The notes under the pieces were generated by a model. The model saw nothing but the letters and a program-made list of their open reading frames with translations. It was not told the DNA's origin and searched no databases. DNA of 28,395 bases, from positions 1 to 28,395 of the forward strand of contig JADGIG010000057.1 in NCBI GenBank assembly GCA_018985235.1, given 5' to 3'. The stretch comes from Sanchytrium tribonematis. Its lineage: Eukaryota > Sanchytriomycota > Sanchytriomycetes > Sanchytriales > Sanchytriaceae. Each line of letters opens with the position of its first letter. Positions within the stretch are counted from its first letter, which is position 1. Made by a program: the position numbers and the translations under genes. This document shows positions 150-27,530 of the stretch, in pieces.

Positions 150-1513
150 AGCCACCAGCTAAGTTTGCAACAAATCTTAAGGCTTTCAAAACCATTCCAT
201 TACCTTCAACAAAGCCTACAGACTTATATTCAACATTCAATTTTTTTGCCAAAGTTTGTAGCTGTTTTCTAACAGTTCGCAGCCTATTTCGAGGCAGCCT
301 AGGAAACACATGATGCGTTGTTTGAAACTGAAGACCACCATGTAACCAGTCCAACCAGGGAGAACATTCAACATCCATCGTAGTTCTTAGCATTCTGTGA
401 ATCATGCTTTCATAATCTGGGGTATTTGTGTCCATCGCAAAGTGAGAAAGCGTGATTTGGACATGTAAAAGTGCAGTCAATGCGTGACAAATTAAGGTAT
501 ATACTAATTTTGTCCATAATCCAGGAATAAATGTAAGTAGATAGAAATACCAGGTGCCGAAGAGTCCCATACAAACAACTTCCAGCTTTCGATGTTTAAT
601 TTTATCTTTTGTTAAAATTCCAGCTAAAAATACTAAGCTTTGAACATACAAATTAAATCGAGCAAACATTAAAACAATGTAATAAATCTATGTAAATCAG
701 GATTACGTAATGTTGATACTGGACAACAAACTGAGAAAGCCTATCGAAGGTCAGCTTGCGACCGTGGAAACTGCTGTAAATTGAGTTAAAAAACTCCGTT
801 GTAACAGCAAAGAAAGGCAAATGCTGGATATCTGGATCGTGGTGAGGATCATTTGTAATAATATGATGTATATTATGCGAGTGTTTCCACCATCCCATCG
901 AAATACCTCCAAACAAGTCACCAATCAAAATGCCTATGACGTAATCAACCGGTTTATGCGTAACTCCGTAATGCCCCAAGTCGTGTCCCACAAAGGCAAT
1001 TTGATGCCAAAAAAACCCAAGAGCAAAAGCCGATAATATGTAATACTCGCAATAAATTAAATACAATGAAAAAGCTGCAAGAGAAACACATTTAACTAAT
1101 TCTCGATAATAAAATGAATAGTCAGTATTGTAAAGTCCTGCTTGCAACAGTTCCTTGTGCATATCAATCACAGCCTCTCTTTGTTCAGTCATTTTAGTAT
1201 CAGTATGTAACAAATCCAGCTGGTCTTGGATTCTACCTCTTTCTGCTTTAGAGTAGTTACATTTTTTGTTCCAAACAATTGCATTTTTCTGCAAGATCCC
1301 TACAGAATAATGCTTAAGATAAGATAAGGTCTGCTCGGGATGTAAAGTCATAAAATAATCGGTCATATCTTGATATTTGCCATGTTCAAGAGCAAGTCTG
1401 CCACCAGGGTGCCTATGCTTGAAGTCACCTATATCAATAACATAAGGGCTTACAAAGAGCCATTCAGTTTCGAAATCCGTCGTATCCAGCTTTTCATCCC
1501 ATCGAGCAGACAT
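124..1513 (-). CDS. Cytochrome b5-fused front-end desaturase (delta-8 sphingolipid desaturase type)
   Basis: Two exons, 1513-707 and 687-124, give 456 aa. This is an ER-membrane desaturase that inserts a double bond into a sphingoid base or fatty acyl chain using electrons from its own cytochrome b5 domain. The b5 haem motif HPGG is at residues 35-38 with a second likely haem histidine at 58. The three histidine boxes are HDLGH (177-181), HSHNIHH (211-217) and QTTHH (391-395, followed by VFPRLPR). The third box has Gln in place of the first His, typical of b5-fused front-end enzymes, but TT where IE or VE is usual. Hydrophobic segments lie around 143-170, 190-206 and 280-345. A 19-nt intron at 688-706 splits the conserved QHY/IYY...FARFNLY region. 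Substrate choice (sphingolipid or fatty acid) is inferred from overall resemblance. There is no AATAAA at the stop. Confidence 0.9.
688..706 (-). other. Ultra-short intron, 19 nt, GT-AG, phase 0 (desaturase)
   Basis: Sense-strand sequence gtaatcctgatttacatag. Removing it joins ...QHY to IYYIVLMFARFNLY, the conserved stretch of b5 desaturases. If retained, the frame drifts into 17 unrelated residues and a stop. 5' hexamer GTAATC; branch-like TTTAC with A at -6; TAG end. Confidence 0.93.
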
Positions 1514-1670
1514 TTAAAATTTCAATGTTTCAAGCGAAATTGATTTTTGGCAAAAGTGATACCCCGGTGTTCCGCTTTATATGTTTGATAAAAAGAATTT
1601 ATTCGCCTCTTCATGTTAATTAAATGAGGTTGGAAGATTCTCATATCATCAGGCCCTGATGAATAAATAT

Positions 1671-3255
1671 TTATTCCACTAATTTTAATCCTTCATCTGC
1701 TTTCACAATTCGAATAGTGTTTGTCTTGCCAGATCCTCCAGCCCAGCCATGAATTACCAAAACTAGATCATTGACTTTTAAGAGCTTACGCTCGATGGCC
1801 GTGGCGATTGCTTTTTGGAGACGTTCGTCCACCTGATTCTGCCATTCCTCTCCCTTTAATGGCCTGTCTTTCGGCATCTCATGAAGAACAGGATAGCAAC
1901 CTCTATACAGATGACATTGTCTGGCGGTTGAAGCAGACTTTGTTACAGTAATAATTGGAACCTGAGGTCTATATTTAGCAACCAGTCGAGCGGTTGTACC
2001 CGTAGTGGTCAAAACCACAATGGCGGACACTTGCTGCTCGATGCAAGCGTTTACTGCCGAGCTAGCTATAGTCTCTGACGTTTCCAACATCACTTTTTGA
2101 CAACTTTGAATAGCCAAAAATAATGGGGGATAACAGACTGAACTTTCACCCTCAACGCAGAGCTGGTGCATCATTTTCACAGATTCTACAGGAAACTTTC
2201 CTTTGGCTGTTTCACCGCTAAGCATAACACAATCAGCACCATCCAAAACAGCATTTGCTACATCGCTGCATTCAGCTCTAGTCGGTCTCGGAGAATTTGT
2301 CATAGATTCCAACATCTGTGTGGCACAAATGACTGGCTTTCCAATAATGTTACATTTGGCGATCATCATTTTTTGAGCAACAAAAACTTTCTCTAATGGA
2401 ATTTCCATACCCAAATCACCTAAATAAATGTTAATTACCTCTTGCTACCATCACACCATCAGTGACACCTAAAATTGCATCAAAGTTTTTAATTCCTTGC
2501 TGATTCTCGATTTTCGAAATGACTTTGACATGTTTTCCACCTTCAGAAAGTAAATCTTTGATTGCCATAACATCATCTGCTCTTCTAATAAATGACGCAA
2601 ACACCATATCAATTTCTTTTTCAATACCAAACTTGATATCAGATATATCTTTCTCACTTAAAGCAGGAAGTTCCACATTTGTACCCGGCAAATTGACATT
2701 CTTTCTTGATGTCAATGTATGTGTGTTAAGTGCTTTTGCTTTGAGATTTAAATCATCTACTTTTGACAAAATTTCTAGCGATAAATTACCATCTTCGATA
2801 TAGACTAAACTCCCAGGTTGCATATGACTAATTCCTTTGTAATCGATATAAATTTGCTTTTCACTGCAGTCATCCTTAAATTTGGAATCAGTTGTTAAAA
2901 TAATATCTTGTCCTTTTTCGACTGTATAAGTACCATCGTCCTTGACTAAACCAGTTCTAATTTCTGGACCTTTTGTATCTAATGCAATAGCAATAACAAC
3001 TTTAGGTCGTTGCGCCCTTGCCTTTTTAACATTCTCAATGGTCTGACCATGAAAATCATGATCGCCATGACTGAAATTCAATCTAGCAATATTCATTCCA
3101 GCATCAATTAAACTCAAAATAAACTCGACAGAATTATTTTTGCCAATTGTGCATACAATGGCCGTTTTTCTATAATTTCCCATGCCTTCCATGACATTAA
3201 TATTTGCTGTCCACTCAAGTCTAGTTGAAATAGTTCCCTCTCTGCGTTTAGACAT
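1671..3255 (-). CDS. Pyruvate kinase
   Basis: Two exons, 3255-2439 and 2419-1671, give 521 aa, close to the usual 500. The enzyme transfers phosphate from phosphoenolpyruvate to ADP in the last cytosolic step of glycolysis. Motifs in order: IARLNFSHG (56-64, substrate-binding Arg58), ALDTKGPEIRTG (91-102), the catalytic-lysine motif ISKIEN, VMVARGDLGMEIPLEKV spanning the intron, then the MLESM and AECSDVANAVLDGADCVMLSGETAKG segments. The C-terminal domain ends near VLVIHGWAGGSGKTNTIRIV. The frame is open up to an ATG at 3339, but that would overlap the divergent inhibitor gene, so the ATG at 3255 is preferred; its SKRREGTISTRLEWTANINV lead resembles yeast enzymes. The usual TIGP loop reads TIGKNNS, so the proline is missing. 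AATAAA (1670-1675) overlaps the TAA stop. Confidence 0.95.
2420..2438 (-). other. Ultra-short intron, 19 nt, GT-AG, phase 1 (pyruvate kinase)
   Basis: Sense-strand sequence gtaattaacatttatttag. Splicing turns ARG-N-stop into the invariant ARGDLGMEIP of pyruvate kinase. Retention gives a stop after one codon. 5' hexamer GTAATT; branch-like TTTAT with A at -6; TAG end. Confidence 0.95.
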
Positions 3256-3294
3256 GTCAAATGGCAATCTCCTCGAAACCGCGATTGCAATCAA

Positions 3295-3513
3295 ATGGGA
3301 AAATATATTGTTGTTTTGAAAAAAGGATCTGAAGCTCAATTAGGTCTAGTTAAAAAAGACTTGGAGTCCAAAGGCGGAAAAGTCACTAACACTTTTGATG
3401 GAACGGTATTACTGGGGCACAGCGTAGATTTGCCGGATTCACATGTGGCAACTATGGAAAATCATCCACACATTGATTATATTGAAAAAGATGGCGAAGT
3501 TAAAATTCAATAA
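3295..3513 (+). CDS. I9-family proteinase B inhibitor (Pbi2-like)
   Basis: 72 aa, about the size of yeast Pbi2 (75 aa). The whole protein is one inhibitor I9 domain, the fold otherwise used as the propeptide of subtilisin-like proteases: it opens KYIVVLKKG, has a central helix (SEAQLGLVKKDLESKGGKV) and ends HIDYIEKDGEVKIQ. The free-standing form with no protease attached and no signal peptide fits a cytosolic inhibitor of vacuolar proteinase B, with a role in vacuole fusion known for the yeast protein. It is divergent from pyruvate kinase, with only 39 nt between the two ATGs. The stop sits inside AATAAA (3509-3514). The kexin at 10207 is a different subtilase type and an unlikely partner. 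Confidence 0.9.
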   Translation: MGKYIVVLKKGSEAQLGLVKKDLESKGGKVTNTFDGTVLLGHSVDLPDSHVATMENHPHIDYIEKDGEVKIQ

Positions 3514-3523
3514 ACATTTATGC

Positions 3524-4027
3524 TCAAGTCAGTCGACATTTTTGAATTAGCTTTTCTATATTTTGCAAATTTTGAAGAATGTTAATTTTTTTCTCCAAGC
3601 TAGCTTTTAAACGATGCCTGGTAATTGTGTCTTCAGCCTGCTTTAAATTATCGAGTTCAGATTCTTCATATTTCTCAATTTTTTGTGTCAAGGTTTCTTG
3701 CAACTTTAACAAATTGCTTTTAAATTCAAGCAAATCTACATTGTAAGGCAAATTAACACCAAAACGATCATTAAACTCTTCCTTGAGATGATTCTCTACA
3801 GAATTTATATCCAAAGCATTTATTTGCTTCACAATATTAATATTTTTCTGACCAAGGTGTAAATCTAAAAGATTTTGGTACTCTTCATTGAGAGAAACGG
3901 CTTGCCTTTCTAGCATTACAATCTTGTCACGAATTTTGCGCACCTTTGAGGTTTGCGCCTTTTCCAGTTTCAACTGCATATAATTTGATTGAATTACTTC
4001 AAACTTGGGAAGATCAAAGTCATGCAT
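3524..4027 (-). CDS. Coiled-coil protein of unknown function
   Basis: 167 aa from an ATG at 4027. Not recognised. Almost the whole protein is predicted helical with heptad-like spacing: a first coiled coil around residues 18-60 (LKLEKAQTSKVRKIRDKIVMLERQ), a short break with NLPYNVDLLEF near 93-103, and a second coiled coil around 105-165. No enzyme motif, signal peptide or membrane segment is visible. The length and two-coil layout recall small subunits of microtubule or kinetochore complexes, and the NLP break is weakly like HAUS2, but this is only a suggestion. It converges on the I9 inhibitor with 10 nt between stops. Confidence 0.8.
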   Translation of the reverse strand: MHDFDLPKFEVIQSNYMQLKLEKAQTSKVRKIRDKIVMLERQAVSLNEEYQNLLDLHLGQKNINIVKQINALDINSVENHLKEEFNDRFGVNLPYNVDLLEFKSNLLKLQETLTQKIEKYEESELDNLKQAEDTITRHRLKASLEKKINILQNLQNIEKLIQKCRLT

Positions 4028-4157
4028 TAAGGGGATAATTTACGTCCGGATAATTGTTCTACTATCAGAACGGAAGTAAATTTCTTTCCAAGTTTAAGAA
4101 AACTGCGCTACTTTTGTACATGTTAAGATCGTGAAAAAGGAGTACAATAAAACAAGA

Positions 4158-4721
4158 ATGCGAAATTCTGAAATCTTACTTAACTGGCCAAATTTAGTAG
4201 GTTACGTAAGAATATTGCTGTTATTGGGATTTCTTTTAACAGAACAAATAGAATTGTATATTGTGTCATACCTATTGGATGCACTTGATGGCTATTTGGC
4301 TAGAAAATATAATCAATGTACCCTTTTTGGAGCAACCTTAGATATGGTTGTCGATCGAATTTCCTCATCGGTGATATTGTTAACAAGACTCCAATCTTCT
4401 GTGAATTTATTTTATGTTCTTTTGGATTGGACCAGTCATTTTGTTCATATGCAAAGCGCTTTATTAAGCAAGTCCAAATCCCACAAAAATGTAGATTACA
4501 ATTCTAAGCTATTGCATCTCTACTACTATAATCGGACAATTTTATTTTCTATTTGTTTTGGCTACGAGCTATTTAATATTTGCAACTTCATTGGATGGAA
4601 ACACGATTGGATTTACTACAGCAGTGGTATAATATTCTACTTAAAGCATTTGATTCATGCAGTGCAGCTTGGAAAGGCTTTAGAAGCAATTCTGCATATA
4701 GATTTGGCTAAAGCTGATTAA
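4158..4721 (+). CDS. PIS1: CDP-diacylglycerol-inositol 3-phosphatidyltransferase (phosphatidylinositol synthase)
   Basis: 187 aa. Makes phosphatidylinositol from CDP-diacylglycerol and myo-inositol in the ER membrane. The CDP-alcohol phosphotransferase signature is perfect: D41-x2-D44-G45-x2-A48-R49-x8-G58-x3-D62-x3-D66, the metal- and CDP-binding site. It is preceded by NWPNLVGYVRI, the usual first helix of PI synthases. Further hydrophobic segments at about 15-40, 68-90, 115-140 and 150-170 fit a six-helix protein. The frame extends upstream to a GTG at 4131, but the first ATG is 4158 and places NWPN near the N-terminus as in the family. AATAAA (4730-4735) begins 8 nt after the stop. Confidence 0.92.
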   Translation: MRNSEILLNWPNLVGYVRILLLLGFLLTEQIELYIVSYLLDALDGYLARKYNQCTLFGATLDMVVDRISSSVILLTRLQSSVNLFYVLLDWTSHFVHMQSALLSKSKSHKNVDYNSKLLHLYYYNRTILFSICFGYELFNICNFIGWKHDWIYYSSGIIFYLKHLIHAVQLGKALEAILHIDLAKAD

Positions 4722-4764
4722 ATTGATGAAATAAAATATTTTAAGGCCATTTCAATTTCCATTT

Positions 4765-6345
4765 ATGGGCTTGAATCCACAAAATAACTGGGCAGAATCT
4801 CAGGCAAATGATGTGCGAGGCAAAGACAGATGGAAATATCATCATTATCGCGTGGATGAGACCGATTTAGAATTTTCACAACAATGCCAAGCTTTTCAAG
4901 CTGAGAAACTTGTAATACAAGATTCCGAAAACTATGCCTTAGAAGCCGTGCCTTGCGAAAATCATTCTTTACAAAAGGCAGATGTATTGGAAAGCTTGAA
5001 AGGCTGGGCTGACCAACTAAATTTCCCACTTAATGATTTTAATGTAGATGTAATCGTTTATTTGGCAGAACTAAAACGATGGAGGATGAATACAGGCTTG
5101 ACCACCGTGGCCTCAGCGGAAATCGAAGAATGGGAAGCAAGGCAAAATCAATTGGCCGAGCTACATAAAATAAGGCAAAACAATCTTCATTCTGAGTTTA
5201 TGAACTACCTTGAATATAAAACAGATGCTTATGAAACTCGAATAGCAAAAAGAAAATCGAAAAATCAATTAAGACTGCAATCGTTGAAAGATAACTTAGT
5301 AAGCAAAAAAAATAAGCAATTGAATAAGCTTTGCCATTTTAACAAGAAAGATATCAAATGTTGGACTGAATTAAATCAAGCCAAACATTCAATTGCAGAA
5401 CCTAATTTAAAGCTCACTAGCGCAAAAAATTATTCAAACCTGCCTGATTTTCCAATTGAAGTCGAAAGATGCTTTGGGATTTCTAACAATATTGAACAAT
5501 TTGTATCAACTAATATCGCAAAAGATGGCGATAAGTTGGTAGAGATCAAATTGGATGGTCATGGTGATCGTGTTAATGTTGTACAGAAAGTATTATCTGA
5601 CGATGACCTTCAGATTTCAGCCTCAAAAGATATTTTTGAGTCTCAAGCTGCAATTAAATCGACTCTTTATAGAAAAAGATACAGTAGACTCTTTAAGAGG
5701 AAATACATTATAGATGCCATTAAAGCCAAGGACTGTGACTTTTCCTATACTTATGAATCAGATTCAGAGATTGACGAAATAGAAACTGAAGTTGATTTTA
5801 GTCTGGAACCAGTTTGCAGAGAAATCGATGTTGCAATCAAAAATGAATTACAATCAATTGAAATAGAAAAAGCGATAATTGCATTAGCCTCTGCCGCCAC
5901 TGCAGAAAAATTAAAAAATGCTCAAATTGAATTTGAGCATCACTCGGAGAATGAAATCAACAACAGAATCAAACAGCAGAAGGAATTAGAAGAATCTCAC
6001 CTTTATAGACAGCACGCCACCACTTTTGTCCAACAATGCTTACTTGGTTGTGCGCGCCATTTGGTTTTACAATATACTGAACAAAATTGTTTAATAGCCT
6101 TGAATGATCTGAGTGATAAATTAGTTAAAAATATCGATTTATCTGGAACATTAATTCAAAATTCTATCGTAAGCGGTCTCAATGAAAGAGTTATTGATAG
6201 TTATTTAAATGCTAAAAACAAGTTGGTAGAAAACACAATTAATTCTTGTTTTGGTACAACAATGTCACAACCTAGAAAAGAAGTGCAAATTGATAAAGAG
6301 AAAGTCAAAGATGCGGCCATGAAAGACCTAAAATCTTTAATATAA
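4765..6345 (+). CDS. CFAP91-like axonemal radial-spoke base protein (probable)
   Basis: 526 aa, charged and largely helical. Several blocks follow CFAP91/MAATS1 (FAP91 of Chlamydomonas), which links the calmodulin- and spoke-associated complex to radial spokes: ADVLESLKGWADQLNFP (79-95), VDVIVYLAELKRW (99-111), then EIEEWEARQNQLAELHKIR (123-141) and a basic helix ending KKNKQLNKL. A long C-terminal helix (about 355-480) resembles the conserved E/K/R-rich tail. Family members are usually 650-770 aa, so this copy would be shortened, mainly at the N-terminus. The match was judged from remembered family features, not an alignment. If right, the organism builds motile flagella. An alternative is an unrelated coiled-coil protein. 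AATAAA (6344-6349) overlaps the stop. Confidence 0.8.
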   Translation: MGLNPQNNWAESQANDVRGKDRWKYHHYRVDETDLEFSQQCQAFQAEKLVIQDSENYALEAVPCENHSLQKADVLESLKGWADQLNFPLNDFNVDVIVYLAELKRWRMNTGLTTVASAEIEEWEARQNQLAELHKIRQNNLHSEFMNYLEYKTDAYETRIAKRKSKNQLRLQSLKDNLVSKKNKQLNKLCHFNKKDIKCWTELNQAKHSIAEPNLKLTSAKNYSNLPDFPIEVERCFGISNNIEQFVSTNIAKDGDKLVEIKLDGHGDRVNVVQKVLSDDDLQISASKDIFESQAAIKSTLYRKRYSRLFKRKYIIDAIKAKDCDFSYTYESDSEIDEIETEVDFSLEPVCREIDVAIKNELQSIEIEKAIIALASAATAEKLKNAQIEFEHHSENEINNRIKQQKELEESHLYRQHATTFVQQCLLGCARHLVLQYTEQNCLIALNDLSDKLVKNIDLSGTLIQNSIVSGLNERVIDSYLNAKNKLVENTINSCFGTTMSQPRKEVQIDKEKVKDAAMKDLKSLI

Positions 6346-6380
6346 TAAAACTTGGTATTTTGCGGGCCTTCTAAAAAACG

Positions 6381-6422
6381 TTGGTTTTGACCAATCACTT
6401 TTTCAGAACACCTCATTGGTCA
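6381..6422. promoter_or_regulatory. Cluster of three CCAAT boxes in alternating orientation upstream of the BSD2-like gene
   Basis: TTGG at 6381, tgaccaat at 6388-6395 and attggtca at 6415-6422. The last two form a perfect 8-bp inverted repeat with a 19-nt spacer, 47 nt before the ATG at 6469. CCAAT boxes are bound by the Hap/NF-Y complex in fungi and animals. That this cluster acts as a promoter is inference. Confidence 0.4.
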
Positions 6423-6468
6423 GAACTTGATTGATTAAAATAAATTCCCAGATCTCCCCTTCTACAAA

Positions 6469-6945
6469 ATGACATCGTACGAAAGAGTCCCAGATTATGA
6501 ACAACCAAATTCTTCAGAGACTTCGCCTCAAGCTGTACAAGCCACTCCAACTACTCACCATTTGGGAACATCGACTCACGATGCCGTTTTTGCTGATTTA
6601 CCCACGTATGACGATATAATAAAAGATCCGACTCCACAATATGAAGATGAAGGGCTAGAAATTGGTGATTTACCCACTCTTATTTTATCTGCTTTATGCA
6701 CCATGGTATTTCAGTTAATTGGGTTCATGCTATGTTACATGTTTTCTACTTCTCATGCTAGTAGACTGGGTGCAATGGCTGGTCTAGGAATTAATATTTT
6801 CCAATATGCAGTCTACTTTCGTGAACGTCATATGAGAGATCCCTATACTGCTGGTATTGCATATTTAATAATGCTTGGTGGAATTGCATTGACAGCCGAA
6901 AGCCTGTTTTCTTTTATAAGACTTAGAAGGTTGCAGCAGAGATAA
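6469..6945 (+). CDS. BSD2: Bsd2/NDFIP-family adaptor of Rsp5/Nedd4 ubiquitin ligases
   Basis: 158 aa. Family members sit in Golgi/endosome membranes and bring Nedd4-type ligases to membrane cargo such as metal transporters. The N-terminal 65 residues are hydrophilic and carry PY-like motifs LPTY (residues 44-47, DLPTYDD) and TPQY (about 54-57), the kind bound by WW domains. Three hydrophobic segments follow: about 68-92 (PTLILSALCTMVFQLIGFMLCYMF), 99-118 and 127-148. The stretch TSHASRLGAMAGLGINIFQYAVYF is the family core (yeast Bsd2: TSHAA..GSRAGLG). The length is short compared with yeast Bsd2 (321 aa) and nearer NDFIP1 (221 aa). AATAAA (6944-6949) overlaps the stop. Confidence 0.88.
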   Translation: MTSYERVPDYEQPNSSETSPQAVQATPTTHHLGTSTHDAVFADLPTYDDIIKDPTPQYEDEGLEIGDLPTLILSALCTMVFQLIGFMLCYMFSTSHASRLGAMAGLGINIFQYAVYFRERHMRDPYTAGIAYLIMLGGIALTAESLFSFIRLRRLQQR

Positions 6946-7021
6946 TAAATATTTATACCAATCGTTGTACAGATTCCGCTGAAACTATGGAGTCAAATGT
7001 TTATGGTTTTCAAGCCCACCG

Positions 7022-8282
7022 ATGCTTGAAGTTTTACTATTTTCAATTTTAAATGGAATACTACTCATCCTAGTTCATTCGTTATCGTCAAAGAGACTTA
7101 CAAATTCAGAATTGATCTTTCAAATTTTAACAGTTGCTTATACGATATCAATGGGGTTATATTTTGATTATGCAGACGCATGGTTGTCAGCACTATCAAT
7201 TTCAATTTTATTCGTTCCAGCAATAGCGATGATTAAATTAGGATATGTTGAATACCAACTACAAAATAGATATCACGAAAAAATGAAGTCGATTACAAAC
7301 GATTTATTTGAAATTAAGAAAAAGAATGAGTTTGCAGAAAATGACTTGGATCATCCGGTATTATATGTATCTAAAGTGATTCAATCAAATAATGTGGTAG
7401 CTTTTAAAGCATCTTCACTTCTTAAATGGTCAGGCTCATTTATTTTGGTTTTACTCATAATTTTATTTAATGCTCCCTTTAGCGACAAGAGAAGTCAACA
7501 TTTTGATTTTGAAAAGATTCTTGCTATCTACTCTGCTAGTGTTCTACTCTCGCTAATATTTCTATTCAAGACAATTAAAAAGAAGCAATTTGATTCACTT
7601 AAAAGGTCTCATTTTTTAATTACTGAAGTGTTTTTAGAATTGCTAATTTTCATTGCAATTATTTGTTTGTATGCTCTGAAATTAGATGGATTGCGACTTC
7701 TCACATTGGGACACTTGACAATACATCACTTTGGAATATTTATGTTTTATATTCGGAATTTTCCACGTAAAAATGCCAACAGGCAAACACAGAAATATGA
7801 AGAGTTTGAATCATTGCTAGCAGACACCATCATGTACACCAAATTTAGACTTTATTGCTCCAGAATGAGAGATGAAAGAAAAATAATATTTCTGGAAGCG
7901 TACAAAGAATGTGAAAGCATGGCTTCTATCAATATAATGAAAGGATGTTCTTCATTTGCTGTTGCCTTGTCAGGCTTAGAATTGGCTCCAAAATCAAGCT
8001 CACTTGAGAGCATGAAGCAATCTGAGAAAAGAGTACAAAGACTTCACAACGCAACGTATGAAATTTATCAGCTTTTTCTCGACGAAGGCAATTGACATTA
8101 ATTTAGGGTCGCCTTACTTATTACGTGATGTTTCCACTAAAGAGATTAGTCTTGTTCGACAGAATCGCGAAACTTTAGATTTTACTTCTTTAAATCCAAT
8201 TTATATTGAAGTTTGCAAATATTTGTATATCTGGCATTATGACAATTTTTTAGACCAGCAAGATTCGGAAGAGTATAATTAA
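7022..8282 (+). CDS. Seven-transmembrane RGS protein (7TM-RGS)
   Basis: Two exons, 7022-8087 and 8107-8282, give 413 aa. Seven hydrophobic segments are visible at about 3-21, 30-48, 53-75, 137-154, 166-183, 198-219 and 225-244, followed by an RGS domain at about 261-405. RGS domains speed GTP hydrolysis by heterotrimeric G-protein alpha subunits. The domain starts FESLLADTIMYTKFRLYCSRMRDERKIIFLEAY, has IYQLFLDEGSPYLL at the splice junction, and ends LDFTSLNPIYIEVCKYLYIWHYDNFL. The 7TM-plus-RGS layout is known from plant RGS1 and fungal GprK-type proteins. A GC-AG intron of 19 nt splits the RGS domain; without splicing the protein stops at DEGN and loses the last helices. It converges on the nucleoporin gene with 2 nt between stops. 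Confidence 0.88.
8088..8106 (+). other. Ultra-short intron, 19 nt, GC-AG, phase 1 (7TM-RGS)
   Basis: Sequence gcaattgacattaatttag. It is nearly the pyruvate kinase intron with GC instead of GT. Splicing gives FLDEGSPYLLRDVS, matching the loop after the IY..FL helix of RGS domains. No GT-AG choice in this interval restores the frame while keeping that helix. Branch-like TTAAT with A at -6; TAG end. Confidence 0.85.
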
Positions 8283-8284
8283 AT

Positions 8285-18002: not shown

Positions 18003-19124
18003 TTGCCGCTGGCTGAGAAGTTTTTCCCTATTTAAAAAGTAGTCTGATGGAATAGAGGAAATGATTGGAATGAGTCTTTTTTGTTTTGGCAAAGCCAAAT
18101 TCACACTTATTTCTGTAGCTGAATAACTCTCAAACTCTTGTTTTTTTGTCGCAACTGAATTCCAAATTGAATGGCGCTTCATAAATAATGATAAATTGTT
18201 GGATCGCCTTAAAAAATTAGAAATTTTTCCCATAAAAGTTGATATTCCCTCAACATTTCTACTATACTTCGGATAAAGGTGTTGACTCTGAGGTGAGATG
18301 TTTTCTTGATAGTCAGTAGCTAATAGATCCAAATAAGCGGAAACTTTATAAATACCTTCTAATACGAAGTCGTAAAATTTTTGATTTGATAAAAGTCCTT
18401 TGAAATGTTCAAATTGGCTGCTTAAAACAAAATTTTCGCTTCTCTGCGATCTACACTTTTTAATAATAACGTTATAAATAAAAAATGATCTCTTTAAGAA
18501 AATATCAATCTCATCCTGGCTTATTTCTTCTCCGGTGGCTATGTAATTACAATTAATATTCTCTATTTGATTCATCAATTTCCACAAAGTAACATAAACT
18601 TTAAATACTCCGGGTGCTCTTAAGTGCTTTTCATCTAATGTAAATACATCTTGAGGCTTCGTAGAAGATAATCCAACATCAACTTCAAAGTTAAATGCAA
18701 CTTCTGTCCTAAGTAATTTGCGATTTTTGATCAAATAGTCAAAGAAAGAATATGCGTCAGATGGTCTTAAATTATCAAAATAATCAATTACATAAACGCT
18801 TTGCTTCACTCTGCTAGTAATTGCATATTCTTCAGACTTTGTATATATAAATCTTATCAACTCTAATAATTCTACTATTCCTGGATCTTCATTATTTTCT
18901 TTCATTAAATTTAAAGCGCTGTCTGAGATAGCTTGGTATTTCTTCTCGTCCACTATGTCTATAAAATCAGGTTCGCAAAGAATTTGCAATAGCTCCTTTC
19001 TCTTTGACGGCCATATGGAATAAAGGTAAAATATCTGGTCAGTATGTCGAATATCACTGGTAAGTATATTTTTCAGGTCCATATCATTGCGAATAGCTTC
19101 GATTAGTGAATTTTGATCATTCAT
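17994..19124 (-). CDS. Helical protein, possibly THO complex subunit 1 (Hpr1/THOC1)-like
   Basis: 376 aa from the ATG at 19124; the frame continues upstream to 19238 but that part overlaps the hydratase start on the other strand and shows no family features. Mostly helical. Parts recall THOC1/Hpr1, the mRNA-export THO subunit: VFKVYVTLWKLMNQIENI near 203-220, FEHFKGLLSNQKFYDFVLEGIYKVSAYLDLL near 262-292 and a later helix-plus-WNSV segment in the position of the WNSWK motif. The match is weak and made by eye, so function is tentative. Only 30 nt separate this ATG from the divergent hydratase ATG, and its 3' end overlaps the orphan gene by 9 nt. Confidence 0.75.
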   Translation of the reverse strand: MNDQNSLIEAIRNDMDLKNILTSDIRHTDQIFYLYSIWPSKRKELLQILCEPDFIDIVDEKKYQAISDSALNLMKENNEDPGIVELLELIRFIYTKSEEYAITSRVKQSVYVIDYFDNLRPSDAYSFFDYLIKNRKLLRTEVAFNFEVDVGLSSTKPQDVFTLDEKHLRAPGVFKVYVTLWKLMNQIENINCNYIATGEEISQDEIDIFLKRSFFIYNVIIKKCRSQRSENFVLSSQFEHFKGLLSNQKFYDFVLEGIYKVSAYLDLLATDYQENISPQSQHLYPKYSRNVEGISTFMGKISNFLRRSNNLSLFMKRHSIWNSVATKKQEFESYSATEISVNLALPKQKRLIPIISSIPSDYFLNREKLLSQRQSD

Positions 19125-19154
19125 TGTTTTCAAAATCCCCGTTTGTGTAAAGTT

Positions 19155-19971
19155 ATGTTCCGCTCCAAGACATTGCTTTCCAGCTGGGAGTACATTCAAA
19201 CAAAATCTGTAAACAAAGTCGGTGTTGTAACTTTGCATCGCCCAAAAGCGCTAAATGCTTTGTGTACTCCACTTTTTAACGAATTGATCAAAAGCTTGCG
19301 AGATTTTGACCATGATCCAAATATTGGAAGTATCGTATTGACAGGAAGCAAAAAAGCCTTTGCAGCTGGTGCAGATATTAAAGAAATGAAGGATACGAAT
19401 GGCATTCAAAATTACAAATCCGATTTTCTTGGCTTTTGGCAAGATATAGGTATTCTCAATTCATTTAGCAAAAATTAGGAAACCGATTATTTCAGCGGTT
19501 AATGGATATTGTCTGGGCGGTGGTTGTGAATTAGCGCAACTCACAGATATCATATATGCTGGAGATTCTGCTATGTTTGGTCAACCTGAAATTAAACTAG
19601 GTACAATTCCAGGCGCAGGAGGTACCCAGAGACTCACAAGAGCTATTGGAAAGTATAAAGCTATGGAGTTGGTACTCACTGGCAGAATGATGAATGCACA
19701 AGAAGCATACCAAGCCGGATTAGTTGCAAGAGTATTTAAATCGGATGAATTATTTGACAAGACTATGGAACTTGCTCAAGAGATTGCCAGCTTTTCAAAG
19801 CCTGTTACAATGATGGCAAAAGAAAGTGTCAATAAGGCCTTTGAAACCACACTGACTGAGGGATTAATTTTTGAACGCAGATTATTTCACTCTACCTTTT
19901 CCACTGAGGACCAGAAAGAAGGAATGGCCGCGTTTGCTGAAAAACGAAAGCCCCATTTTAAAGATCAATAA
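19155..19971 (+). CDS. Enoyl-CoA hydratase, probably mitochondrial (ECHS1 type)
   Basis: Two exons, 19155-19449 and 19469-19971, give 265 aa. Hydrates 2-enoyl-CoA to 3-hydroxyacyl-CoA in fatty-acid and branched amino-acid breakdown. AAGADIKEM (70-78) and LGGGCE form the oxyanion hole; the two catalytic glutamates are Glu119 (GGGCEL) and Glu139 (GQPEI), the correct 20 residues apart, followed by [10 protein letters not shown]. The C-terminus [12 protein letters not shown] is typical. The frame is open from a TTG at 19113; the first ATG (19155) gives [15 protein letters not shown], a short basic hydroxylated lead that may be a mitochondrial presequence. AATAAA (19970-19975) overlaps the stop. 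Confidence 0.95.
19450..19468 (+). other. Ultra-short intron, 19 nt, GT-AG, phase 1 (enoyl-CoA hydratase)
   Basis: Sequence gtattctcaattcatttag. Splicing gives [23 protein letters not shown], the conserved core of crotonases, whereas retention reads 11 unrelated codons to a stop. Branch-like TTCAT with A at -6; TAG end. Confidence 0.96.
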
Positions 19972-20015
19972 TAAACTTCATTATTGAATTTGGGAAAAGG
20001 GAAACACCAGGAGAA

Positions 20016-21884: not shown

Positions 21885-21885
21885 A

Positions 21886-22500
21886 CTATTTACTCGACAA
21901 GTACGCTCGGAATTTAACATCTTCATAGATGTTTTCAGGGTTCGCAATTATGAGGAAAGCTGTTTCACTGAGCTTCGGCTGTTGGTAAGGAATTTTTTCC
22001 AAGTCAAAAACTTTTTTTCTAATGGGTGTCTCGACCTCTTTCACTTCAGGAGATTTCTCATCAACTTCTTCTTTTACTTCATTAGTAGGAGATACAACAG
22101 GTGCTGCAGTCGGGTATTGATAGTACTGCGCGTAGTACTGCATATAAGGCGACTGAACAATCTTTCTTTTCTTGATAGCTGGACGGATCGGCTCTGCAAA
22201 TCCCAATGGTAGGTCCATATTTCGTTGATTCGCCCTTTTCTCAATTAAAGCAAATGGCACACCTTCTAAACCATGAATTTCCAAATCAGTTTTACACCTA
22301 TCTGGGAGAGAAAATGGAACACTGGTCATCTCTCGTTTATGGACACTCAAATAATGTAGAGACAATGCAGTAGCTGTATTTAGTCTTTTTTGACACTCTT
22401 GACACTTAAAATGTTTGGCTCTTTGGTGTTGAATTAATATTTTCTCATCCGTAAAATCCCGATCGCAATAATAGCAAAAAGGCGGCATGTTTCCTTTCAT
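21886..22500 (-). CDS. BuGZ/ZNF207-like C2H2 zinc-finger protein
   Basis: 204 aa. Two adjacent C2H2 fingers at the N-terminus (C9, C12, H25, H30 and C33, C36, H49, H54) with the family wording CYYCDRDFTDEKILIQHQRAKHFKC, then VHKREMTSVPFSLPDRCKTDLEIHGLEGVP. This is the hallmark of ZNF207/BuGZ, which in animals binds Bub3 and microtubules and also splicing factors. The rest is basic and low-complexity with a Tyr/Gln-rich patch (SPYMQYYAQYYQYP). A clear GLEBS Bub3-binding motif was not seen, so the kinetochore role is not supported here; a splicing role is possible. Its ATG lies 24 nt beyond the stop of the upstream dioxygenase gene on the same strand. Confidence 0.88.
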   Translation of the reverse strand: MKGNMPPFCYYCDRDFTDEKILIQHQRAKHFKCQECQKRLNTATALSLHYLSVHKREMTSVPFSLPDRCKTDLEIHGLEGVPFALIEKRANQRNMDLPLGFAEPIRPAIKKRKIVQSPYMQYYAQYYQYPTAAPVVSPTNEVKEEVDEKSPEVKEVETPIRKKVFDLEKIPYQQPKLSETAFLIIANPENIYEDVKFRAYLSSK

Positions 22501-22524
22501 TTTGATGTTTCAGTGGAGAAATAT

Positions 22525-23046
22525 TTATTTTTGTTCTAGTTCTTTGAGATATTGCTTTCGAATGGGTAGATTTTCGGAATCGGGTGATCTATTGTGCGGG
22601 ATCCACTTAGGATTTAATTCAAATAATCGTAGAGCTTTGATGTATAGATTCTCATCAATTGTAAAACGATGATAAATACCAGCTGGAATAATTATAAAAT
22701 CTCCCTTTTCAACCATAATTCGAATCCATTTATCACCACTTTTAACGTCGCGTACATCGAAATATCCTTTTCCTTCAATGATAAATCGGATTTCAGCATC
22801 TTCGTGCAGGTGTTCTTCAAAAAACTTGTTCATCATTTCTTTCGGGGTCTTATCAGTCAAATGGACGATATCGTGGGCAGGGTAGATGTCAAGATATTCA
22901 TTAATCATCTCATTCACCACATCAGGCGTCATCTCAAATTTTTTGCACTTTATACCAAGTGCAGTTAAATGATCCATAGAAACGTCTTCACCTTTATGAG
23001 GCATAGTAAACGGCTCGTCGCTGTTTAAGAACTCGTATGCTATCAT
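22525..23046 (-). CDS. ADI1: Acireductone dioxygenase (ARD), methionine salvage
   Basis: 173 aa, normal family length. Oxidises acireductone to formate and the keto acid precursor of methionine; the metal (Fe or Ni) decides the product. The cupin metal ligands are all present: His79, His81, Glu85 ([16 protein letters not shown]) and His126 (PAGIYHRFT). The C-terminal block [14 protein letters not shown] is typical. No presequence, so cytosolic or nuclear. AATAAA (22524-22529) overlaps the TAA stop. The 217-nt spacer to the divergent phosphatase gene is the longest intergenic region in the window. Confidence 0.95.
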
Positions 23047-23263
23047 GAGTTGTTTCCCCCTTGCACCTTCTGATCTATCATGGGGATTATCAGTTGACTG
23101 GGCAAGTAGTCGTAATTTTTAAAACTTGAAAGATTTCTATTTTTGTCAATCTATTTACTTTGTGAAACCGCAAAAGTCATCCATCATTTGCGTCCAACCC
23201 GTGTGACTAAATTTTGTGACTGAAACATTTTTTTTACGTCAGAAAACATTTTCGAGGTTTATT
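23047..23263. promoter_or_regulatory. Divergent intergenic region between ADI1 and the CTD-type phosphatase gene
   Basis: 217 nt, the longest spacer here. It holds a TTACGTCA element (23234-23241), a match to the CRE/ATF-type bZIP site, 22 nt before the phosphatase ATG. No RNA gene, repeat or coding frame was recognised. Promoter function is inferred from position. Confidence 0.4.
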
Positions 23264-23920
23264 ATGTTATCAAGTATAGTGCAAAATATATGCAATTGCT
23301 TTGGTACTGCTAAGGTTCAAGAAACAAAATTAATCACCCAACAAACTGAAGCGCATGTAGATCAAAAACAAATTATTCGAAGTCAACAATTGCTCTTACC
23401 TTCTGCCACTTCGAATAAGAAAACCTTAATTATTGATTTAGATGAGACTCTTGTACACGCTTCATTTTCACCCATTGATAACCCAGATATAATAGTAGAA
23501 GTGGAGCTTGATAAAATTACCCACCAAGTTTATGTTTTATTGCGGCCGTATGCTCGCGAATTTATAATTGAAATGGCCAAATTATACGAGCTGGTTATAT
23601 TTACTGCTAGCTTATCCAAATATGCAGACCCCGTAGTTGATTTCATTGATACGATGCAGCTTATTAATTATCGACTTTATCGACATCATTGCACGTACCA
23701 CAATGGAATTTATGTCAAGGACTTGGCTCAGTTGAATAGGAGTTTGGAAAAGGTCATCATTATTGACAATTCGCCAGCAAGTTATGCCTTCCATCCTAGT
23801 AATGCTATTGGAGTTACGAGCTGGTTCTCTGATAAATCTGATACCGAACTGAAGCAATTAACTACGCTGCTTAAGGATTTATCTAATGTGAACGATGTGA
23901 GAACAATTTTGAAAAAATAA
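23264..23920 (+). CDS. FCP1/SCP-type HAD phosphatase (Psr1/CTDSP-like)
   Basis: 218 aa. Phosphatase of the C-terminal-domain small phosphatase group. The catalytic motif DLDET (Asp58, Asp60) in LIIDLDETLVH is followed by RPYAREFI, VIFTASLSKYADPVVDFID, RLYRHHC and VIIIDNSPASYAFHPSNAIGV, the standard order for the family. Cys10 and Cys12 near the N-terminus (NICNCFG) resemble the palmitoylated lead of yeast Psr1/2, which sit at the plasma membrane; this is inference. The frame is open from a GTG at 23216, but the first ATG is 23264. The substrate could be phosphoserine in RNA polymerase II or another protein. AATAAA (23916-23921) overlaps the stop. Confidence 0.92.
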   Translation: MLSSIVQNICNCFGTAKVQETKLITQQTEAHVDQKQIIRSQQLLLPSATSNKKTLIIDLDETLVHASFSPIDNPDIIVEVELDKITHQVYVLLRPYAREFIIEMAKLYELVIFTASLSKYADPVVDFIDTMQLINYRLYRHHCTYHNGIYVKDLAQLNRSLEKVIIIDNSPASYAFHPSNAIGVTSWFSDKSDTELKQLTTLLKDLSNVNDVRTILKK

Positions 23921-23951
23921 ACATATTCTTGTATAATTTTAAAACTTGGAG

Positions 23952-24266
23952 ATGCTTTGTCTGAATAACAAGTTGATTCGAGGCGAAGGGATATGTGATA
24001 AAAAAGGTTTGTATAACGGGGACGCTCTTTATTCTAATAACCCGCGCAAGGTACAATTATACATTTTAGACGATGAGTTGTTATATGCTGATTCCATTAA
24101 TATTGATGGTCAAATTGAAGAAGTACATCCACTTTTGGCCCCTTTGCCAAGACTATTTAATCCACAGCCTAACAAGGAACAAAGCGGCGGTATAAAATGG
24201 TACTGGTGGCTACTGTTGGGATGGTTTGTGCTCAATATTTTGGGAGGAGCATCGGCTGCCAAATAA
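23952..24266 (+). CDS. Small tail-anchored membrane protein of unknown function
   Basis: 104 aa from the first ATG; a TTG six bases earlier is disregarded, and an in-frame stop just upstream of it rules out a longer N-terminus. The N-terminal 75 residues are hydrophilic (KVQLYILDDELLYADSINIDGQIEEVHP), followed by PLLAPLPRLF and a single membrane segment, KWYWWLLLGWFVLNILGGA, ending SAAK. With no signal peptide it should be tail-anchored with its N-terminus in the cytosol. The proline-rich lead and WYWW helix faintly recall the C-terminus of EMC10, but the lumenal domain of that family is absent. It lies 31 nt after the phosphatase stop; AATAAA (24262-24267) overlaps its own stop. Confidence 0.72.
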   Translation: MLCLNNKLIRGEGICDKKGLYNGDALYSNNPRKVQLYILDDELLYADSINIDGQIEEVHPLLAPLPRLFNPQPNKEQSGGIKWYWWLLLGWFVLNILGGASAAK

Positions 24267-24308
24267 ATTTCCCACAAATTTAAAATCAAACTTTTGTGGC
24301 TTGTTTTA

Positions 24309-25796
24309 ATGACTCTTAGTAAACATTTTGTTACTGCTCCTGATATTGAGCGCGCACAAGTTAAGAACCTACAAGCATATCAGTATAAGAAATTATTATC
24401 ACAAATTATTACAGTGTCTTCGTATTCAGTGACATTGCTTGGCTCATTTTACTCAAGAGCCGAGATAGCAAGTGAAAATCTGGGAGAGCTATATAAGAGA
24501 CTTTCCAAGTTAGAACAGGCCCTGCCTAATATTCAAGATAGACTTATTGCCGAGCCATTTCATTTGGGCGAAGCCGAAAAACCACAACCTACGCTGATTA
24601 GTTCTTCATTCTTAAGTAAAGAATCAAGGCCAATGGAAATGATGGCTGTATATGAAAAATGCAAAAAGCCACCAGAATTACACAAACTGGACCAGTTTAG
24701 AAGTGATGGTAAAACTTGTATGCAGTTTTACTCGAATCCTAACTTTTTTGTTGAGGAATGGAAAAAAGTTATCGAAAAAGAGAACGAGGAAAAGAAGAAG
24801 AAGCGAAAAGAGAAAAAAGCACTTAAAGCTGAGAAAAACAAAAATGTATCCGCTGATGCTAATGAAATGGATCACAGGGTCGTCCCAGCAGCATTGGATG
24901 GTTCGCCTCAGGCAAATATAAGTGTTGAATATGAGAGCGACAAAAACATGAGTCCTGAAAATGACTACGTTATTGTCGAGGCTAACAATGAGCCAGCACC
25001 ATTGCCTGAAGCAGACGAGGAATTTGATCCTGAAAAGTTATTTAGCACTATAGACGATTTGATTCCAGGACTTGCCGGAATAGGGTTGTCTGAATCACCC
25101 GTAGACCCAATTCCTATGATGCAAGCTGCTCCATTCCAACCGCCTCAATTTGGAATGGGTGTACCTCAACCATTTCAAATGCCTCCTCCTGCAGTGGTAA
25201 ATTTAAGACAAACCAGTAATTTACAACGATCATCGCAAGAAAATCTGGTTGCCCCAACCCCTGTTCCGTTTGTTCAGTTAAAGCCTGTGCAAAATATCCC
25301 ACCTCCTCAATTAAATCACGCGCCTGTTGCACCAACATTTAACCCACCTACGTTAAATATACAAAGTCAGCAACTACCTCCCCCACCACAGATGACTCCG
25401 CAACAGATACCCAGACCTCAATCGGGAATTGCTCAGCTACCAAATCAAGTTCCAGCTCCTCAATTTAATAATGCTCCACCTTCACCAATGGCAAACATTG
25501 CCCCCCCTCCCCCTGGACCTCCAGTAGATCTACCGACATCCAAACCATTTGCTCCTCCTGCATTAAGAAAGGTGGAGAAAGTAGAACAGCCAGCCAAACC
25601 ATCAGTTGGACGTGATGGAATGTTGGGAGAAATTAAAACTGGAGCTTTCGCGCTAAAAAAAGTTGCAGCCTCTCAGGCTCCAGCTCCTGTCAAAAAAGAA
25701 GATACTACTGTCGCAGGTATATTGATGCGAAGGGTCGCCTTGGAGATGAGCGATTCGGATGGTGATGATCATGACGATGACGAAGAATGGGACTAA
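24309..25796 (+). CDS. SCAR/WAVE actin nucleation-promoting factor
   Basis: 495 aa. Activates Arp2/3 to build branched actin downstream of Rac. The N-terminal SCAR homology domain (about 1-150) ends with YEKCKKPPELHKLDQFRSDGK and QFYSNPNFFVEEWKK, diagnostic for SCAR/WAVE. A basic patch (EKKKKRKEKKALKAEK) is followed by a linker and a Pro-rich region (about 270-425). The C-terminal output region is complete: WH2 actin-binding motif MLGEIKTGAFALKKV (438-452), central helix VAGILMRRVALE (468-479), and an acidic end with Trp494 (DDDEEWD). The open frame begins at a TTG; the first ATG (24309) is used. AATAAA (25802-25807) lies 5 nt after the stop. Confidence 0.94.
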   Translation: MTLSKHFVTAPDIERAQVKNLQAYQYKKLLSQIITVSSYSVTLLGSFYSRAEIASENLGELYKRLSKLEQALPNIQDRLIAEPFHLGEAEKPQPTLISSSFLSKESRPMEMMAVYEKCKKPPELHKLDQFRSDGKTCMQFYSNPNFFVEEWKKVIEKENEEKKKKRKEKKALKAEKNKNVSADANEMDHRVVPAALDGSPQANISVEYESDKNMSPENDYVIVEANNEPAPLPEADEEFDPEKLFSTIDDLIPGLAGIGLSESPVDPIPMMQAAPFQPPQFGMGVPQPFQMPPPAVVNLRQTSNLQRSSQENLVAPTPVPFVQLKPVQNIPPPQLNHAPVAPTFNPPTLNIQSQQLPPPPQMTPQQIPRPQSGIAQLPNQVPAPQFNNAPPSPMANIAPPPPGPPVDLPTSKPFAPPALRKVEKVEQPAKPSVGRDGMLGEIKTGAFALKKVAASQAPAPVKKEDTTVAGILMRRVALEMSDSDGDDHDDDEEWD

Positions 25797-25834
25797 GAAA
25801 CAATAAATTCTAAATATAATTTAATAACTTCGTA

Positions 25835-25856
25835 CAAGAAATTTCGAAATTTCTTG
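25835..25856. promoter_or_regulatory. 22-bp perfect palindrome upstream of CCT3
   Basis: Core AAGAAATTTCGAAATTTCTT (25836-25855), flanked by C and G that extend the symmetry to 22 bp. It is 17 nt before the CCT3 ATG. It contains GAA and TTC triplets in alternating orientation like a heat-shock element, although the middle pair is spaced 3 rather than 5 bp centre to centre. Two copies of GAAATTTC sit head to tail. A role in heat-shock control of this chaperonin subunit is inference. Confidence 0.5.
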
Positions 25857-25873
25857 GTTAGAAACTCGGAGAA

Positions 25874-27530
25874 ATGTCTGCACCTGTCGTTGTCATCAAT
25901 ACTGGAACTGAAAGAACCAAAGGAAGGAAAGCCCAATTGTCATGTATTCAGGCTAGTGGAGCTGTCGCATCAATTATCAAAAGTTGCCTTGGACCTAAGG
26001 CAATGTTGAAAATGTTGTTGGATCCAATGGGCAATGTTGTACTTACTAATGATGGTAATGCCATACTTAGAGAGTGTGAAGTCACTCATCCTGCAGCAAA
26101 GTCAATTATTGAGCTAGCAAGAACTCAGGACGAAGAAGTTGGAGATGGTACAACAAGTGTAATTATCTTGGCTAATGAATTGTTGCAGGTAGCTCAACAA
26201 CATTTAAAATTGCATCCAATTGTTATCATCAATGCTTATAGAATGGCTTTGGAAGATGGATTGGCGTTGCTGGAAAAAATTGCGCAACCTTTAGATCTTA
26301 AAGATACTGAGAAATGTCAACAGATTATCAAATCCAGCATCGGAACCAAATTTGGAAGTAGATTCGATAAGCTTATCTGCGATATTGCTTGGAAAGCAGT
26401 CAATATCGTCAAAGAAACTGTATTTGGAGAAACAAGCGTTGAAATCAAACGATTTGTGAGGATTGAAAAAATTCCTGGTGGTTCTTTAACTGAATCAAGA
26501 ATCTTGAACGGAGTTTGCCTAAACAAAGATGTTACCCACCCTAAAATGAGAAGGGAGATCAAAAATCCTCGAATTGTTTTGTTGGACTGCACTTTAGAAT
26601 ATAAGAAAGGGGAATCGCAAACAAACATCGAGATTAGCAAGGAAGCCGACTGGAAGAAGTATTTGGAAATTGAGGAAGAGCAGATTAAAAAAATATGTGA
26701 TGAGATTTCCAGAGTAAAGCCAGATCTTGTAATTACGGAAAAAGGAGTTTCTGGTAATTTGAATTTACTTAGATCTTGCACAGCATTACTTGCTGAAAAA
26801 TAACATCACAGCAATCAGAAGAGTGAAAAAAACAGACAATGTCAGACTAGCTAGAGTTACTGGAGCCAGAGTCGTCAATAGACCCGAGGAACTAACTGAG
26901 CAAGACGTAGGAACTGCATGTGGTATTTTTAAAGTGGAACAAATTGGTGATGAGTACTTCACATTTTTAGAAGAATGTAAAGACCCGAAAGCTTGTACCA
27001 TAATTTTAAGAGGTCCAGCAAAGGACATCATTAACGAATTCGAAAGAAATGTTCAAGACGCTTTATGCGTTGCCAGAAATATTGTTTTGGACCCATTCCT
27101 ATGTCCGGGTGGCGGGGCAACTGAAATGGCTTTGTCAGTTGAGTTGGCTAAAAAAGCTTCTACAATTGAAGGGACTGAACAGTATCCTTATGCGTCTGTT
27201 TCGGATGCTTTGGAGGCAATTCCAAAGGTTTTAGCCTCAAACTCCGGTGCAAAGCCTATTCAAATTATATCTGATTTGAAAGAGAAATATGCAGCTGGGG
27301 AGCAGTTTGGATTTGATGGCAACAAGGTTAAAGTCGTTTCTACGAAGGAATTGGGTATCTGGGAACCAAAAAGTGTGAAAGTGCAAACCTTAAAAACAGC
27401 AATTGAAGCATCTTGCATGCTTCTGAGAGTTGATGACATTGTGAGTGGTATTGCTAAAAAACCAAAGGGAAATCCGTCCGTGGAAGAGAATGAGGCTGCT
27501 ATGGAAGCTGCTGCTGCAAATGAGCAATGA
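25874..27530 (+). CDS. CCT3: T-complex protein 1 subunit gamma (CCT3)
   Basis: Two exons, 25874-26753 and 26773-27530, give 545 aa, the normal length. One of eight subunits of the cytosolic CCT/TRiC chaperonin that folds actin and tubulin. Group II chaperonin ATP motifs: LGPKAM (39-44), LTNDGNAIL (57-65), GDGTTS (90-95) and PGGGATEMAL near the C-terminus. Gamma-specific wording includes VVINTGTERTKGRKAQ at the start, KDVTHPKMRR, DPKACTIILRG and KELGIWEPKSVKVQT. The intron at 26754-26772 lies in the apical-to-intermediate region. AATAAA (27533-27538) is 2 nt past the TGA. Confidence 0.97.
26754..26772 (+). other. Ultra-short intron, 19 nt, GT-AG, phase 1 (CCT3)
   Basis: Sequence gtaatttgaatttacttag. 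Splicing gives GVSDLAQHYLLKNNITAIRRV, the conserved CCT3 segment; retention reads 17 unrelated residues to a stop. Branch-like TTTAC with A at -6; TAG end. Confidence 0.96.

Follow-up and report, generated by a model that had tools for sequence, protein, structure and literature searches.

The window analysed here, the whole 28,395-nucleotide (nt) stretch of contig JADGIG010000057.1 of Sanchytrium tribonematis (assembly GCA_018985235.1), contains eight genes that are each split by a single interval of 19 or 20 nt, which an original prediction made from the letters alone had taken for spliceosomal introns. These intervals lie in genes for a cytochrome b5/fatty acid desaturase (688..706, minus strand, 19 nt, GT..AG; coding sequence (CDS) ~124-1513), pyruvate kinase (2420..2438, minus, 19 nt; CDS ~1671-3255), a membrane-protein-like product with an RGS domain (8088..8106, plus, 19 nt; CDS ~7022-8282), a kexin-like protease (11421..11439, plus, 19 nt; CDS ~10207-12361), a second RGS-domain protein (14351..14370, minus, 20 nt; CDS ~14203-14768), MCM5 (15801..15819, minus, 19 nt; CDS ~14801-16721), a mitochondrial-type enoyl-CoA hydratase (19450..19468, plus, 19 nt; CDS ~19155-19971) and CCT3, the T-complex gamma protein (26754..26772, plus, 19 nt; CDS 25874-27530). 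The predicted coordinates and lengths proved exact, with seven intervals of 19 nt and one of 20 nt. All eight finish in AG; seven are GT-AG, and the interval at 8088..8106 is GC-AG.

Each interval has one phase in which long, coding-like open frames lie on both sides, with flanking runs of 269 and 187 codons in the desaturase gene, 300 and 248 in pyruvate kinase, 368 and 57 in the membrane-protein-like RGS gene, 415 and 306 in kexin, 141 and 48 in the second RGS gene, 310 and 332 in MCM5, 113 and 166 in enoyl-CoA hydratase, and 297 and 251 in CCT3. In the alternative phases the frames are either short or non-coding by score, reaching at most 57 and 35 codons, in MCM5, where the scores are negative. 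Removal of the intervals had been said to restore conserved protein, and all eight spliced products do match known families continuously. A Pfam domain covers the junction in 7/8 (E=1.1e-6 and E=1.4e-13 for the RGS domains of the genes at 7022-8282 and 14203-14768, respectively); in kexin two Pfam domains flank the junction, across which the yeast kexin chain aligns without interruption. Alignments of MCM5, CCT3 and enoyl-CoA hydratase to chains from the PDB show no gap at the junction; the best-matching chain of T-complex gamma carries the joined CCT3 text, EKGVSDLAQHYLLK, unchanged, and the MCM5 interval lies within the Walker A motif (GDPGVAK/SQFLK), a region that runs without interruption in the MCM paralogues at two other loci (L002 and L007). 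The eight intervals are confirmed as real and as described. The two RGS-domain genes lie within 8 kb of each other, each with a tiny intron, one of which is the only GC-AG intron of the window.

Frame-joining intervals were counted in a sample of 308,186 bases in 35 sequences, comprising the window, loci of MCM genes and small nuclear RNAs (snRNAs), and 25 stretches of 10 kb chosen without regard to introns; loci L005 and L008 were removed for overlap with others. The first settings of this ab initio scan were too strict (two at 19 nt only), and it was recalibrated on the eight window sites and rerun. Before any motif was applied, 39 GT-AG frame-joins were found at 19 nt, compared with 10–22 (mean 16.2) at nine other lengths from 13 to 40 nt in the same frame class (Poisson P ~1e-6), against a background that rises with length, up to 28 at 58 nt. 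In these motif-free joins A occupied position -6 in 32/39 at 19 nt, 4/16 at 16 nt and 6/14 at 22 nt, and the combination of GTA with T at -8 and A at -6 was present in 26/39, 0/16 and 1/14, respectively. Among control dinucleotide pairs, 3n+1 lengths were the commonest in most, a bias that true gaps of 19 nt would be expected to produce. GC-AG joins showed no excess at 19 nt (8, versus 7 at 16 nt and 13 at 22 nt).

The frame-joined, motif-scored introns of the same sample form a catalogue of 40, 33 of 19 nt and seven of 20 nt, 38 of them GT-AG and two GC-AG; no join of 18 or 21 nt passed motif scoring. Eighteen of the 40 were checked by homology, namely all eight in the window and 10/32 elsewhere, chosen as recognisable proteins; at these ten a domain covers the junction in eight, the junctions in an MCM and a MutS-like gene falling between domains. 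Genome-wide searches covered 6,336,753 bases in 311 contigs, in which a strict 19-nt pattern, GTAWTTNNNNYTWATTTAG, matched 115 times and its reverse not at all. With the gap left free from 0 to 30 the same pattern matched 150 times and its control 41 times, and the first 100 of the 150 matches, counted by hand, comprised 73 of 19 nt, 15 of 20 nt, one of 25 nt and 11 of 32–45 nt. A genome-wide histogram of intron lengths, which the original prediction had proposed and which pattern and frame-joins together approximate, thus peaks at 19 nt with a second class at 20 nt. Between them these introns make up a uniform ultra-short class with a narrow length peak below 25 nt. When 5′ and 3′ motif score alone is considered, at 12–14 bits, the reversed sequence matches too, at nearly every length, and it is therefore the frame-joined set, with the pattern counted genome-wide, that carries the claim for length. 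The number of introns in the analysed genome is roughly 500–700: the 27 catalogued in the 25 stretches (21 of 19 nt, six of 20 nt) scale to ~680, and the strict pattern, which fits 8/33 catalogued 19-mers, scales from 115 to ~470 of 19 nt.

The consensus of 35 frame-joined 19-mers is G T A [AT] T T n n n A [TC] T [TA] A [TC] T T A G. A GTAATT-like 5′ splice site (positions 1–6) is followed by two or three free nt, a branch site of the form nA[CT]T[TA]A[TC], and TTAG. The presumed branch A lies 5 nt before the intron end, at position 14 of 19 or 15 of 20, so that the A-to-end distance is equal in both lengths and the additional base of the 20-mers sits upstream of the A. In the catalogue, a motif-selected set, A stands at -6 in 40/40 and yUnAy in 39/40. 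The branch site is UACUAAC-like and complementary to the GUAGUA of U2; the expected register gave the strongest pairing (4.38 of 6, with 3.75 in the next register and no more than 3.63 in 500 shuffles), a result that is partly circular because the set was selected on its motif. Other fungi have U2-type introns with a UACUAAC-like branch site, as here. Catalogued introns are 79.7% A+T, in sampled sequence of 35.3% G+C, occupy phases 0, 1 and 2 in 10, 16 and 14 cases, and follow an exon-terminal G in 19/40; if retained, 29/40 would place a stop codon inside the interval. At a score of at least 14 bits the 19-nt motif is found 40 times forward and six times reversed. With their GT-AG or GC-AG ends, U2-complementary yUnAy branch site and joining of exons, the intervals appear by sequence to be introns of the U2 type.

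A search for the snRNAs U1, U2 and U6 recovered one U2 and one U6, both above the Rfam cut-off, and one U1 candidate, all three with canonical pairing sites (GTAGTATC in U2, ACAGAGA in U6 and ATACTTACCTTG in U1). Among spliceosomal proteins, Prp8 was found at E 5e-63 and a Yju2/Saf4 protein at E 2e-43; U2AF65 (TIGR01642) gave 20 partial matches, none above cut-off. The genome contains spliceosomal snRNAs (U2, U6 and the U1 candidate) and core proteins (Prp8, Yju2/Saf4).

Evidence that such introns extend beyond this genome came from database proteins of relatives. In the desaturases P0243, P0244 and P0246, from three other genomes and 61–66% identical, family resemblance ends at one residue, the same at which the window's own desaturase open reading frame (ORF) fragment, P0242, is derailed. 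The tails beyond it were back-translated and decoded for intervals of 11–30 nt with GT and AG ends that best fitted desaturase exon 2, which gave intron lengths of 19 nt for P0244, 20 nt for P0243 (25 residues decoded), 20 nt for P0246 and 19 nt for the window's own. Shuffled tails reached the best score 0, 0, 6 and 0 times, in that order, of 300 each; P0246 is the weakest decoding, having the shortest tail and a best score that shuffles reach in 6/300. Other junctions are continuous in relatives: P0241 reads through that of the desaturase, P0121 (82% identical) passes straight through the CCT3 junction without a gap, and P0001 does the same at pyruvate kinase. The name of P0121 includes a contig label (NODE_98) that identifies it as a contig-called ORF, which suggests that its CCT3 site is intron-free; P0001 and P0241 are not labelled in this way and may be predictions made with splicing. 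As read from these proteins, tiny introns are apparently common to the clade while some positions differ, and the CCT3 and pyruvate kinase sites suggest intron gain or loss within it. Published sanchytrid proteins were called with TransDecoder on contigs (PMC8371127), as unspliced ORFs, so that intron-bearing genes are broken in the published sets. The desaturases of the three relatives are broken off at the intron, and the protein sets of the clade probably hold more such broken genes.

Sanchytriomycota are expected beside Blastocladiomycota, as their sister. A tree of a single gene, pyruvate kinase, placed the window together with P0001 as sister to the sampled Blastocladiomycota, with modest support (81/95), and the analysed contigs hold seven MCM loci above cut-off. 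A p25-alpha (TPPP) protein is encoded at C34:3065-3541 (minus), with an open frame of 177 aa (E 3e-36), which fits the TPPP of S. tribonematis, given as 174 aa, and not that of Amoeboradix gromovi, given as 180 aa (PMC10459994). The sampled G+C of 35.3% falls between 34.64 and 36.27%, closer to the lower figure. The sequence evidence marks the host as a fungus near Blastocladiomycota, most likely a parasite of algae. The original prediction spoke of nuclear genes of a free genome; the genes are indeed nuclear, and the lifestyle has to be corrected to that of, most likely, a sanchytrid parasite of algae.

Elsewhere in the window, a small protein with a Peptidase inhibitor I9 domain (3295-3513, plus, E 3.6e-7) is encoded close to the pyruvate kinase gene and divergently from it, on the same contig as the kexin gene. 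The product of 24294-25796 (plus) has proline-rich stretches and an acidic DDDEEWD end, and matches no Pfam family; it is reminiscent of a WASH-type actin regulator. Four further long ORFs (4765-6345, 12849-14201, 16773-18002 and 17994-19238) are also free of Pfam matches.

Taken as a whole, the observations are best explained by spliceosomal introns of the U2 type that have been pared down to the signals needed for recognition and keep to 19 or, less often, 20 nt in a fungal host, an explanation to which we give a probability of about 0.94. In their sequence the intervals have the character of spliceosomal introns near the minimum size in a fungal nucleus, which supports the prediction that a spliceosome here handles introns of nearly the smallest size. 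In such an intron the 5′ site would pair with U1 and then U6, and the branch site, only a few nt away, with U2; scanning would be unnecessary because the branch A and the 3′ AG stand at a constant 5 nt from each other. The normal role of Slu7 and Prp18 is to assist a 3′ site that lies farther off in reaching the active site, so that both may be dispensable here, and the lower bound on length may be set by the packing of two RNA helices. According to one study, yeast Slu7 and Prp18 are dispensable at a short branch-to-3′ distance, Prp18 is described as a ruler fixing the minimum distance, the shortest natural distance in yeast is 10 nt (5 for the present introns on the same count), and Cyanidioschyzon is without both proteins (PMC10711555).

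Several observations count against the explanation by reduced U2-type introns. At 6 bits the 19-nt motif is no commoner than its reverse (89 versus 101), so that it discriminates at high scores only, and because the catalogue was partly chosen on its own motif the figure of 40/40 for A at -6 is inflated; 13 of the 39 motif-free 19-nt joins lie outside the catalogue. Motif-bearing joins also occur at other lengths, 66 in all (five below 19 nt, 14 at 21–60 nt and 47 at 61–120 nt); 38 of these overlap or abut catalogued introns, and the remaining 28 touch none and are spread over 16–115 nt with no peak. In a few of them both flanking frames are long (for example L029- 4052, 95 nt), and rarer longer introns are possible. 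The U1 candidate scores 43.7 bits, under the Rfam cut-off of 69.5 bits, and at a relaxed E of 1 the U1 model matches 3/14 prokaryote controls, none above cut-off. Slu7 and Prp18 (PF11708, PF02840) had no match in a contig set that seems to stop at a minimum of 10 kb (the smallest contig seen has 10,011 bases), and these families matched no control genome either, which makes their absence suggestive only. Joins with a partial motif at 16–17 nt were seen in L014-, L017- and L036+; joins of this kind could be introns of other lengths, or could stem from neighbouring genes or arise by chance.

Among other explanations, the best survivor is that the intervals are kept in mRNA and skipped by the ribosome, through programmed bypass or frameshift, or else are removed at the level of DNA. 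In its favour, all eight lie inside coding regions, where 19 nt shifts the frame; against it stand the hallmarks of splicing, from GT/GC-AG ends and a U2-complementary branch site at a fixed distance to the preference for G at exon position -1, together with the presence of U1, U2, U6 and Prp8 and the internal stops that retention would create in most catalogued introns, and we regard it as improbable. Sequencing or assembly errors, or pseudogenes, that break frames by chance are less probable again. Errors do occur in amplified assemblies. Sanchytrid genomes were produced after whole-genome amplification (PMC8371127). Such errors would not be expected to fall at 19–20 nt, to begin with GT, end with AG and carry A at -6 even in joins found without a motif, to yield pattern counts of 115 versus 0, or to turn up again in three relatives at an identical residue. 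That the window is a chlorarachniophyte nucleomorph, as a modal intron of 19 nt and A+T-rich introns would allow (PMC4035089), has a negligible chance given 6.34 Mb of analysed sequence, against ~0.37 and 0.61 Mb for two nucleomorphs in the same source, and a pyruvate kinase that groups with fungi, beside Blastocladiomycota.

Introns of 19–20 nt are close to the shortest that any cell is known to remove, a pattern reported so far from a few protists and relic nuclei. Short, uniform introns of 18–21 nt had been called typical of chlorarachniophyte nucleomorphs; 19 nt is the mode there, with 496/1,011 and 654/951 introns (PMC4035089). The introns of S. tribonematis resemble those of the Bigelowiella natans and Lotharella oceanica nucleomorphs in their 19-nt mode, narrow range, GT-AG ends with rare GC-AG, and A+T richness. 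They differ in that nucleomorph introns are 58–59% phase 0, compared with 10/40 here, and mostly span 18–23 nt rather than 19–20 nt (PMC4035089), and in that nucleomorphs are of green-algal origin and below 1 Mb. The accompanying claim that only some ciliates go lower did not stand, since the mikrocytids Mikrocytos mackini and Paramikrocytos canceri have introns of 16–17 nt; these parasites are like the present case in uniform length, conserved sequence and hundreds of introns per genome, and unlike it in being Rhizaria, in introns 3 nt shorter and in a spliceosome cut to 17–19 proteins (PMC10245619).

Among fungi, a survey of 644 genomes termed a mean of 63 bp, in Cryptococcus, relatively short, and the parts of it covered name no 19-nt class (PMC8476143). 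The prediction that no fungal-type nucleus with a 19-nt norm was known agrees with the open-licence PMC literature, represented mostly by titles and listings, in which no fungal case of such introns was recognised; in its sanchytrid papers, as far as these were covered, introns are mentioned only in reference titles. Should the explanation by reduced U2-type introns be true, fungi, and by inference a fungal phylum, would join the small number of lineages in which uniform introns of near-minimal size arose independently. Yeast, with its structurally characterised spliceosome, is a far nearer relative of this group than of the others. Sanchytrid gene counts and claims of gene loss would have to be worked out afresh with the minimum intron length set below 19 nt.

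The closest parallel in geometry is the unrelated ciliate Stentor coeruleus, whose introns of 15–16 nt mostly carry the branch A at position 10 of 15 or 11 of 16, likewise 5 nt from the end, and whose U1 ACUUACCU and U2 GUAGUA are retained; its introns are 4 nt shorter, with the 5′ site nearer the branch site and no strong branch-site consensus, and Slu7 and Prp18 are reported as not found (PMC9505925). The introns described here, at 19–20 nt, are longer than this heterotrich type and share with it an A 5 nt before the end, the presumed branch point, and both proteins are undetected here; by analogy, the 5-nt rule and the state of Slu7 and Prp18 may be parallel in the two organisms. It is a tentative extension, to which we would give slightly less than an even chance, that the whole fungal phylum is fixed at 19–20 nt with a spliceosome of fixed geometry that has lost Slu7 and Prp18 since there is no remote 3′ site left to recruit, matching the rule and the losses of Stentor independently. 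The 5-nt rule common to the two, with Slu7 and Prp18 undetected, provides a testable case for the idea that these second-step factors act as rulers for a distant 3′ site only. Beside nucleomorphs, mikrocytids and Stentor, S. tribonematis is a further independent lineage with ultra-short introns, and the first fungal one found within the open-licence literature.

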